Shown one piece after another: positions 9,023 through 36,647 of a stretch of 64,000 bases of DNA. The stretch's first letter is position 1. The number at the start of each line of letters is the position of its first letter. Made by a program: the position numbers and the translations under genes. A model generated the notes under the pieces. It saw only the letters and a list, made by a program, of their open reading frames with translations. It ran no database searches and was not told the DNA's origin. Source of the DNA: Caldicellulosiruptor diazotrophicus (lineage in GTDB: Bacteria; Bacillota; Thermoanaerobacteria; Caldicellulosiruptorales; Caldicellulosiruptoraceae); NCBI RefSeq assembly GCF_017347585.1, contig NZ_AP024480.1, forward strand, positions 1,820,001-1,884,000. Reading direction: 5' to 3'.

Positions 9023-9149
9023 TTATCCTCATCTCTCAGAAAGCTAAGATATTTTGCTTTCTGACGGAGTTGGCACCATTGCAAAGCTAAAAGCTTTGCC
9101 GGTTGCCGGGTTTCATCGGGCCTTTTTCCCTCCACCTCTCTTGATAAGG
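9023..9149 (-). promoter_or_regulatory. SAM-I (S-box) riboswitch aptamer
   Basis: The minus strand has the classic S-box order: CTTATCAAGAG-AGGTGGAGGGA at the 5' side, the GATGAAACCCGGCAACC core, a hairpin with GCAAAGCTTTTAGCTTTGC, AATGGTGCCAA(C)TCC, a hairpin of AGAAAGC/GCTTTCT type, and a closing GATGAGGATAA that pairs with the 5' TTATC. It lies directly upstream of metK, its usual partner. Confidence 0.97.
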
Positions 9150-9200
9150 ATAACCCTTATCATATTCACCATATTCAATTTTTTTAAATTTGCCTCATTA

Positions 9201-34881: not shown

Positions 34882-36135
34882 CTACAGCAACAGTTTTCTT
34901 TTCATCTTTAATAGTTCATATACAATATCGTTTATAATAACAACTCCAATGAGTTTCTTGCTCTCATTCACAACAGGCACAGCAAGAAGACTATATTTTG
35001 AAATAATCTCAACAAGAGAATTAACATTGTCAGTGTCTTTGACACAAACCACATCCCTGTTCATTATCTCATAAAGCGGTGTTTGAGGCTCAGAGATTAC
35101 TAAGTCGCGTAAAGACACGACTCCGCAAAGCTTTTCCTCGTTGTCCACAACGTACAAATAATAAATCTCATCTGGCTCAGGTTTTAAACGTCTTAATTCC
35201 TCTATTGTCTGCTCAACTGTAAAATGTGTCTTGAATGAGATAAAATCGGTGGTCATTATAGCACCTACACTGTTTTCGGGATACTCCATAAGTTCTTTGA
35301 CTTCTTCTGATGCTTCTTTTTCCATACTATTTAGAAGCTCTTCTGCCCTTTCCTCTTTTATCTCATCAAGAATATCCGCAACCTCATCAGCCGGCATTTT
35401 TTCAAGCACATCTGCCACTTTTTCAACAGGAAGACTCTCTAAAACATTTCTCTGTGCTTCAACCTCAAGCTCTTCCAAAACATCTGCAGCCTTTTCTTCA
35501 TCTAAGGTAGAAAAAATGTAAGCTTGCGTCTTTTTGTCAAGTTCTTCAATAATGTCTGCCAAATCTGAAGGATGTAATGTAGCGAGCTTTGAATATGTGG
35601 TTGAAAGCTTTAAATCAAGTCTTGGAGATGCAAGTGGCTGAACATCATCCCACAAAATAAGACGCGAAGGAATGTTTTTACCTAGCGGTTTTAATACCCT
35701 TTTCAGGGGCTTTGCAAGACCAAGCCTCCTCAAAAGTCCTTCAAAACCGATATCTACAGCTATTACATAAACACCTGTAGAAAGTACTGCAAGTCTTATA
35801 TCATTAACCCTCACAACTTTTCTGCCGTTCATATCAACAATCTGCTTGTCAAGTATATGACGAACAAGCATAATGGTATCTTCTTTTTTCACATCGATTG
35901 GCTTTAAATTTCTTGTTTCAATCACGTACTGACCTTTTTCCTTATAGATTATGAAAAACGAAAAGTCCACAATTTGAGTTTGACCGCCACTTTTTACCTT
36001 TGCAGCAATCACTTTGGGTCTAATATAACTTGCATCAACAATCAAGTCTAAAAGCCTTCCCACAACCTTCTTTTCTTCTGAAAAAACCTTGTTCCCAATT
36101 ACTCTGCTAAGATAAAAGCTTGTGACGTTTGGCAT
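34882..36135 (-). CDS. PRC-barrel / MgtE_N / CBS protein, cytosolic partner of the transporter
   Basis: A 417-residue protein with two PRC-barrel-like segments (about 1-80 and 85-165), an MgtE intracellular N domain rich in Glu/Leu helices (about 185-290, with KVADVLEKMPADEVADIL) and a CBS pair (about 295-417). It has no membrane helices, so it is the sensor half of an MgtE channel without the pore. Such proteins are often encoded beside NRAMP-type Mg2+ transporters and probably gate or regulate them by Mg2+ or nucleotide binding. Start is ATG at 36135, directly after GGAGGGGTGCTAAA. That site is the A arm of the leader switch; the in-frame ATG at 36177 lies in the B-arm region. Confidence 0.88.
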   Translation of the reverse strand: MPNVTSFYLSRVIGNKVFSEEKKVVGRLLDLIVDASYIRPKVIAAKVKSGGQTQIVDFSFFIIYKEKGQYVIETRNLKPIDVKKEDTIMLVRHILDKQIVDMNGRKVVRVNDIRLAVLSTGVYVIAVDIGFEGLLRRLGLAKPLKRVLKPLGKNIPSRLILWDDVQPLASPRLDLKLSTTYSKLATLHPSDLADIIEELDKKTQAYIFSTLDEEKAADVLEELEVEAQRNVLESLPVEKVADVLEKMPADEVADILDEIKEERAEELLNSMEKEASEEVKELMEYPENSVGAIMTTDFISFKTHFTVEQTIEELRRLKPEPDEIYYLYVVDNEEKLCGVVSLRDLVISEPQTPLYEIMNRDVVCVKDTDNVNSLVEIISKYSLLAVPVVNESKKLIGVVIINDIVYELLKMKRKLLL

Positions 36136-36273
36136 TTTAGCACCCCTCCTTTTTTGAATTTTTATTTTTGGTGTCATTAGGTGGAGGAGTGCTAAAAGCC
36201 TGAAATATATTTCTAAAAGGGTATATTTATCCCCTTATTTTTCTAAAATAGAGATAAATTAGCACCCCTCCAC
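36135..36273 (-). promoter_or_regulatory. Three-arm alternative-pairing leader switch
   Basis: Arm C (36259-36273, GTGGAGGGGTGCTAA on the minus strand) comes first. Arm B (36180-36197, TTAGCACTCCTCCAC core) follows. Arm A (36135-36149, GGAGGGGTGCTAAAA) is the ribosome site plus first base of the start codon. C-B can form 15 bp with one G-U. B-A can form 15 bp with one G-U. The two are mutually exclusive: C-B leaves the ribosome site free, B-A hides it. Confidence 0.75.
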
Positions 36274-36335
36274 TCTCTTAAGGTACAATTGTTTTTTGTT
36301 GTCCAATCCTGCTTACTCACAGGACCAGAATCCAT
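36243..36335 (-). CDS. Upstream ORF (30-aa leader peptide) in the Mg2+ transporter leader
   Basis: ATG at 36335 follows an excellent GAAGGAGTTGAGAGG ribosome region, and the frame stays open for 30 codons to TAG at 36243. The peptide starts MDSGPVSKQDWTT and ends LREWRGANLSLF. The codons for WRGA and neighbours are arm C of the downstream switch, so translation of this ORF would physically mask C. The peptide has no signal or membrane segment. It resembles nothing I can name. It lies between the M-box terminator and the PRC/CBS gene, so it is made only when the M-box allows read-through. Its reality is inferred from ribosome site, frame and position. Confidence 0.6.
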   Translation of the reverse strand: MDSGPVSKQDWTTKNNCTLREWRGANLSLF

Positions 36336-36409
36336 CTTTCCTCTCAACTCCTTCTTTAAAAAAATTTTCGCAATAGCAAAACTTTATACATTGATATTAG
36401 AAACAAAAA

Positions 36410-36447
36410 GTGCTTTCACCCAAAGCTTAAAAACGAGGTGAAAGCAC
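36410..36447 (-). terminator. M-box expression-platform terminator
   Basis: Stem GTGCTTTCACC / GGTGAAAGCAC followed by TTTTTG on the minus strand. Its 5' part (ACCTCGT) can instead pair with the P1 3' strand (ACGAGGT) of the aptamer as antiterminator, the standard Mg2+-off design. Confidence 0.85.
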
Positions 36448-36468
36448 ATTTTTCGCCCTTTTAAAGCT

Positions 36469-36615
36469 ACCTCGTACAAGCTTTGGCACTACACGGCATA
36501 AAAAGCTGCATTAGGTTATGCCTTGGTTTCGGCAAAACCTGTTTACCAGCTCAGATTGTCTCCAATCTTTCGCGGCAGCAGCCTATATCCCTGTAGGAGC
36601 CTCGCCTACCGAGAT
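36469..36615 (-). promoter_or_regulatory. M-box (ykoK) magnesium riboswitch aptamer
   Basis: The minus strand shows the M-box conserved blocks in order: GTAGGCGAGGCTCCTA, GATATAGGCTGCTGCC, AATGCAGC, ATGCCGTGTAGTGCCAAAGC and GTACGAGG. P1 pairs ATCTCG (36610-36615) with CGAGGT (36469-36474). M-boxes bind several Mg2+ ions and shut off Mg2+ transporter genes, matching the operon behind it. Confidence 0.93.
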
Positions 36616-36647
36616 ATCCATCTTTCAATATTCATTTTTCAACCTCT

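Follow-up and report, generated by a model that had tools for sequence, protein, structure and literature searches.

A candidate ribosome-set, three-arm RNA switch behind the M-box of a Mg2+ transport operon in Caldicellulosiruptor diazotrophicus, with related leaders in Bacillota and Bacteroidota

The leader of an operon for a PRC-barrel/CBS protein and an Nramp-related transporter in Caldicellulosiruptor diazotrophicus contains three related segments, the middle one of which can pair with either of the others. This raises the question of how such an arrangement might control the operon, and of what would set it. The window, that is, the whole stretch of DNA analysed, is 64,000 nucleotides long, and its features are listed in Table 1.

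Table 1. Features of the leader and its operon, in window positions, with the arms of the sister genus in the last row.
Feature	Position	Strand	Details and basis
M-box (ykoK) Mg2+ riboswitch aptamer, first control layer	36464–36620	minus	Rfam RF00380, 126 bits, E = 7.5e-28
Intrinsic terminator of the M-box	about 36401–36447	minus	GTGCTTTCACC..GGTGAAAGCAC, then TTTTTG; almost invariant in 12 genomes; read from sequence
Shine-Dalgarno (SD) of the upstream ORF (uORF), AAGGAG	36348–36353	minus	Kept in 12/12 congeners and the sister genus
uORF, 30 codons	36243–36335	minus	MDSGPVSKQDWTTKNNCTLREWRGANLSLF; ATG 36335, stop 36243; contains C
Arm C (anti-anti-SD)	36259–36273	minus	GTGGAGGGGTGCTAA; within the uORF; partner B; read from sequence
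Arm B (anti-SD)	36181–36197	minus	TTTTAGCACTCCTCCAC; partner C or A; read from sequence
Arm A	36135–36149	minus	GGAGGGGTGCTAAAA; PRC/CBS gene SD through first base of ATG; read from sequence
PRC/CBS gene start codon ATG	36135–36133	minus	
Target gene 1: PRC-barrel + MgtE_N + CBS protein, 417 aa	34882–36135	minus	Pfam PF05239, PF03448, PF00571
Target gene 2: Nramp-related (NRMT-type) transporter, 415 aa	33601–34848	minus	Pfam PF01566, E = 4e-105
Sister-genus arms (G012, L106)			C' GAGAGGTGCTT; B' AAGCACCTCTC; A' GGAGGGGTGC

The first-pass annotation had described arms C, B and A on the minus strand, and both the sequence and the shuffling tests confirm them. The C:B and A:B duplexes each comprise 15 bp with one G-U pair, and A and C are identical over 13 nt. 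When all of the leader except A was dinucleotide-shuffled, A:B (E_AB = -26.2 kcal/mol) had P = 0.0005 and C:B (E_CB = -29.4 kcal/mol) had P = 0.002, and none of the 2000 shuffles matched the two jointly. Neither duplex arises by chance. Arm A had also been correctly identified as the SD and first start-codon base of the PRC/CBS gene, and C indeed lies inside a 30-codon ORF with a strong ribosome site. This uORF starts with MDSGPV; its first six codons are almost invariant and the remaining ones are variable. The element as a whole (36135–36335) matches no Rfam family. The ORF caller had started the PRC/CBS gene at an in-frame upstream ATG directly past arm B (36175–36177, minus strand); this start was rejected because it has no SD and the conserved start is at 36135.

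An M-box aptamer with its own terminator, absent from the first-pass annotation, lies directly upstream of the three arms and scores 126 bits against the RF00380 cutoff of 44. A complete Mg2+ transcription switch thus precedes the three-arm element, which makes the latter a second control layer. Arm C is located ~190 nt downstream of the aptamer, beyond the terminator. The proposed link to Mg2+ transport is supported by the genes that follow (PRC/MgtE_N/CBS and Nramp); an NRMT and MgtE-N gene pair behind M-boxes has been reported as an NRMT Mg2+ transport operon (PMC4072509).

The leader with its three arms is present in all 12 genomes of the genus. Their alignment reveals conservation of the uORF SD, of the six MDSGPV codons, with one synonymous change only, and of arms C, B and A; the spacers between the arms differ in sequence and length. 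Past codon 7, single-base indels shift the uORF frame between species. C thus falls in any of three frames, with the stop codon 2 to 55 nt beyond the C core, depending on the species. The frame nevertheless stays open to the end of the C core in 13/13 genomes (the 12 congeners and the sister genus), of which all 13 have the +2 frame closed and five the +1 frame. The varying frame indicates that C is conserved as RNA, and its constant openness that being translated through C is itself a conserved property, which lends comparative support to the idea that a ribosome masking C sets the switch. Within the genus, 100% of the C:B cells are paired, including a single double change, in L007, from G-C to A-U; for B:A the figure is 96.7%, with no double change. 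Since the arms hardly vary, covariation inside the genus alone was too weak to serve as proof of them.

In the sister genus (G012), the M-box and terminator are followed by a MDSGPVSK uORF (MDSGPVSKCLNKRMHLERCLFL*) and then by C', B' and A', and C':B' is perfectly paired despite several bases that differ from the genus. A 9-bp hairpin over uORF codons 4–11 (CTGGTCCTG..CAGGATTGG, 36300–36330, minus strand) is invariant in the genus, and is intact in L012 although a 1-nt loop insertion shifts the frame there. It was considered as an RNA aptamer and rejected, as it is missing in the sister genus, which retains MDSGPVSK; the older constraint thus appears to be on the start codons or the peptide.

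More distant relatives carry arms of different sequence. The sample consisted of 67 PRC/CBS loci, mostly from Bacteroidota, outside the nine with an M-box match (L014–L093 set); the 11 of them that were scanned had no M-box match. An ATG-started M[DE].{0,3}P uORF, with no SD requirement, was present in 52/67 loci, compared to 2.8 ± 1.6 (maximum 8) in 200 shuffles. Nearly all of these uORFs are found about 100–130 nt before the gene; examples are MDDDPANILILTLI*, MDDGPA.., MDPYPA.. and the MDDDPA type. C/B/A arms reached P_both ≤ 0.05 in 46 of the 52 uORF-bearing loci. In an alignment of 20 leaders, 79.6% of the C:B cells are paired, against 40–48% when the arms are slid, with two-sided changes in 10/14 pairs and a covariation score reached by 0/500 shuffles. 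For B:A, the corresponding values are 83.2% against at most about 60%, with four double-changed cells in three pairs (3/500 shuffles); an example is A GGTGAC / B GTCACC, which becomes A GGCAAT / B ATTGCC. RNAalifold alone selects the B:A helix. A further alignment proved too divergent for pair counting and was set aside. A search for compensatory changes had been set beforehand as a check on the element, and with both helices covarying in these distant leaders, the element is not refuted.

The geometry was determined for 45 of these Bacteroidota-type leaders. The distance from the Pro codon to the start of C is at least 15 nt in 43/45, a ribosome at the uORF stop codon would cover C in 45/45, and the uORF ends before B in 44/45.

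Acidic-proline uORFs were also found behind M-boxes. The phylum Bacillota, together with the previously collected PRC/CBS loci, provided 157 regions downstream of M-boxes, 155 of them usable. An SD-preceded uORF starting with M[DE].{0,3}P occurs in 65/155 leaders, against 3.7 ± 1.8 (maximum 9) after shuffling, and precedes PRC/CBS (26/38), CorA (17/26), MgtE (15/52) and other genes, the family labels here being ours, assigned by clustering and sequence patterns and not by Pfam. A further 27 M-box leaders have acid/Gly starts, such as MDGGGSS. As a control, such uORFs are present in 62/157 M-box leaders and in only 1/68 SAM-riboswitch (S-box) leaders of the same phylum. M-box leaders are phylogenetically non-independent, against which the 51 distinct octapeptides provide a guard. 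A strict degenerate search for MD[S]GPV in 398 genomes of the phylum returned only the genus and one unrelated match; the wider M[DE]..P rule comes from the M-box leaders.

The RNA output does not seem to be uniform. In the three-arm test, 22/82 M-box leaders with acidic uORFs had P ≤ 0.05, so C/B/A is not used by every M-box leader. In 57/88 such leaders (P ≤ 0.05; about 4 would be expected), a segment further downstream can pair with the ribosome-binding site and start region of the uORF itself, for example GGTGAGAAGAATGG with CCATTCTTCTCAC. This second architecture is seen in L115–L130, L146, L211, L224 and others, and its downstream segment is often within a terminator, as in Thermoanaerobacter-like MgtA-type leaders. 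Several RNA outputs thus seem to have been combined with the leader-peptide idea.

PRC/CBS-gene leaders of Desulfosporosinus and others carry the uORFs MDTDPDG.., MEADPYS.., MDGDPNK.. and MDDPDAV.. behind the M-box terminator. The arms of Desulfosporosinus-type leaders (for example C TATGGAGGGAATTT, B AATCCCTTCAT and A AATGGAGGGATTT) gave P_both values of 0.0015 in one leader and 0.0005 in another. Immediately before the gene in L015, L017 and L023, a T run comes after the Desulfosporosinus B:A hairpin, and L023 has a GGAGGGTTTTTT hairpin ahead of the real SD. The output of the Desulfosporosinus leaders may be transcription termination instead of, or besides, SD masking.

Predicted folding of the 12 congeners at 70 °C gives the SD core an unpaired probability of 0.04–0.80 with C available for pairing; blocking C lowers this to at most 0.008 in 12/12. 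For 37 °C, the models leave the SD masked at equilibrium in most congeners even if nothing blocks C, and the switch would thus need high temperature or co-transcriptional folding. According to these models, the RNA is bistable and near balance at the temperature of this thermophile, and C:B, which is transcribed first, would have a kinetic head start.

It is proposed, with a probability of roughly 0.68, that the element is a translation-level Mg2+ switch, set by the ribosome on the leader ORF and placed behind the M-box transcription switch. B would pair either with C, leaving the SD free and the gene ON, or with A, hiding the SD and turning the gene OFF. Arm C is synthesized first and is part of the uORF. 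With sufficient Mg2+, ribosomes would traverse the uORF past C, C would be held single-stranded, B would take A and the importer would remain untranslated. At low Mg2+, the ribosome would drop off or pause at the acidic-proline start (MDSGP; MDxDP or MDDxP in relatives); the front edge of a ribosome halted there would stop short of C, so that C:B could form, expose the SD and allow the importer to be made. As a halted ribosome would free C and a finishing one would cover C and not B, the arrangement fits abortion as ON and full translation as OFF, which is the direction expected for an importer. The proposal of Mg2+ as the signal rests on the uORF start, whose acidic-proline chemistry is that of Mg2+-dependent ribosome destabilisation, and on its position behind an M-box. 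We infer that the uORF is translated, that translation is aborted early at low Mg2+ and which state is ON; the first-pass annotation had treated direction and signal in the same way. With its single acidic residue, MDSGPV is a weaker case than MDTDP or EPDP, and the ribosome may pause at Gly-Pro in place of aborting.

The same RNA switch might accordingly have another sensor, in which the ribosome pauses at Gly-Pro or at the Pro codon through low levels of EF-P, an ABC-F factor or charged tRNA-Pro, C being freed alike. This is unlikely, if by no means far-fetched. Pro at codons 4–6 is the most regular uORF feature besides D2, the MDSGP and MDAGP forms have a single acid, and a ribosome stalled at Pro5 would also leave C free; other mgt-operon leader ORFs are known to sense Pro-tRNA charging (PMC8092293). 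However, an acid (Asp or Glu) at codon 2 recurs just as regularly as Pro, M-box leaders also have Pro-less variants (MDGGGSS, MEYDDW, MESDDD), and the target genes are Mg-related.

An inverse logic, in which the uORF ribosome turns the gene ON by coupling, re-initiation or melting of B:A, is improbable. Such a scheme recalls erm-type translational attenuators, in which a leader ORF and alternative pairing mask the SD and a stalled ribosome frees it, with four segments. It would agree with the SD being hidden by default in the 37 °C predictions, and the L128 uORF passes through B, with its stop adjoining the SD. In contrast, the uORF stops before B in the 13 family genomes, as it does in 44 of the 45 Bacteroidota-type leaders, so ribosomes would cover C and not B; coverage of C lowers SD accessibility in the 70 °C folds, the reverse of the erm case; and mgtQ and mgtB translation are inversely related in Salmonella (PMC8092293). 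The proposed switch thus differs from erm in that an unoccupied C would free the SD, and in having three arms.

It is very improbable that the arms serve as an expression platform under direct control of the M-box aptamer or a different ligand, with the uORF incidental. A three-part alpha-alpha-TIR/alpha-TIR/TIR layout on an M-box is known in Mycobacterium tuberculosis (PMC12810186). The element here, which shares metal and genes with the M-box (RF00380) immediately upstream, is nevertheless outside the aptamer and terminator, with C ~190 nt beyond the former; arms and uORF recur in Bacteroidota-type loci, with no M-box match in those scanned; and the uORF start is conserved far beyond chance. 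That A and C are a recent duplication of no regulatory meaning, as their 13-nt identity in the window might hint, is hardly credible in view of the shuffle tests, the conservation in 13 genomes and the covariation in distant leaders with different sequences.

The proposed ribosome-set Mg2+ switch resembles known systems, and the first-pass view that its layout has no described precedent has to be revised, since close parallels exist in mgtQ-mgtB of Salmonella and at the pe20 M-box of M. tuberculosis. In mgtQ-mgtB, acidic codons 2 and 5 (Asp2/Glu5) lower uORF translation and raise mgtB translation via alternative stem-loops (PMC8092293). The present leader likewise has a short ORF with a strong SD and an acid in the first five codons (one, in MDSGPV), ahead of a Mg2+ transporter operon whose ribosome-binding site can, at the sequence level, be masked or freed by the alternative stem-loops C:B and B:A; here too, less uORF translation is proposed to give more transporter. 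However, mgtQ is an intergenic ORF of 8 aa with four segments (1:2/3:4 versus 2:3) in Enterobacteria, whereas the present element has three arms, C repeating A, in a 5' leader behind an M-box, and occurs in Bacillota and Bacteroidota with other transporter families. The likeness drawn here is one of architecture. The MgtL sequence EPDP is described as destabilising the ribosome, so that translation is aborted at low Mg2+ (Chadani 2017, as cited in PMC11282234); this intrinsic destabilisation (IRD) in the mgtL-mgtA leader of E. coli and Salmonella likewise involves an acidic-proline start, and abortion turns the gene on. The mgtL output is Rho-dependent transcription termination, whereas SD masking is proposed here. 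Leaders of the mgtL/mgtQ kind are further characterised by a modulation of this abortion by L31. The peptides are very short, and the likeness to mgtL and mgtQ is possibly the result of convergence. The pe20 leader has an SD/anti-SD/anti-anti-SD layout near an M-box and a conserved uORF (PMC12810186). In the pe20 case, the arms have been suggested to follow the conformation of the aptamer, and the uORF is itself the ORF under control; in the present leader, the arms are proposed to be set by the ribosome on the uORF, and the anti-anti-SD arm C is neither within nor adjacent to the aptamer.

The element would belong to a known kind, the ribosome-sensed Mg2+ leader like Salmonella mgtQ and mgtL, spread much wider than described. 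A cross-phylum family, in which a M[DE]xxP uORF is combined with a C/B/A or a uORF-RBS/anti-RBS switch before NRMT-, CorA-, MgtE- and MgtA-type genes of Bacillota and Bacteroidota, with or without an M-box, seems somewhat probable. No description of M[DE]xxP uORFs, either behind Bacillota M-boxes or before Bacteroidota NRMT operons, was found in the open literature; subscription papers were outside the search, and an earlier description is possible. If such a family exists, Mg2+ sensing via ribosome abortion would be a widespread strategy and not an enterobacterial curiosity. Two Mg2+ sensors would often be stacked in one leader, the M-box acting on transcription and the uORF switch on translation, and in lineages without an M-box, the leader could be the operon's main Mg2+ sensor. 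The sequence rule (M[DE]xxP uORF, C/B/A arms) could reveal unannotated Mg2+-regulated genes, and more than 100 natural leader peptides would be available for learning which nascent chains destabilise ribosomes.

Two further riboswitch observations were made. The window contains a SAM (S-box) riboswitch at 9026–9150 (minus strand, 83 bits). One congener has a second M-box (L130, G006:C1:699201–699368), with a MDGGGSS uORF and a P-type ATPase gene. This leader is near-identical to the Thermoanaerobacter-like L123 and L124 and was probably acquired by horizontal transfer.
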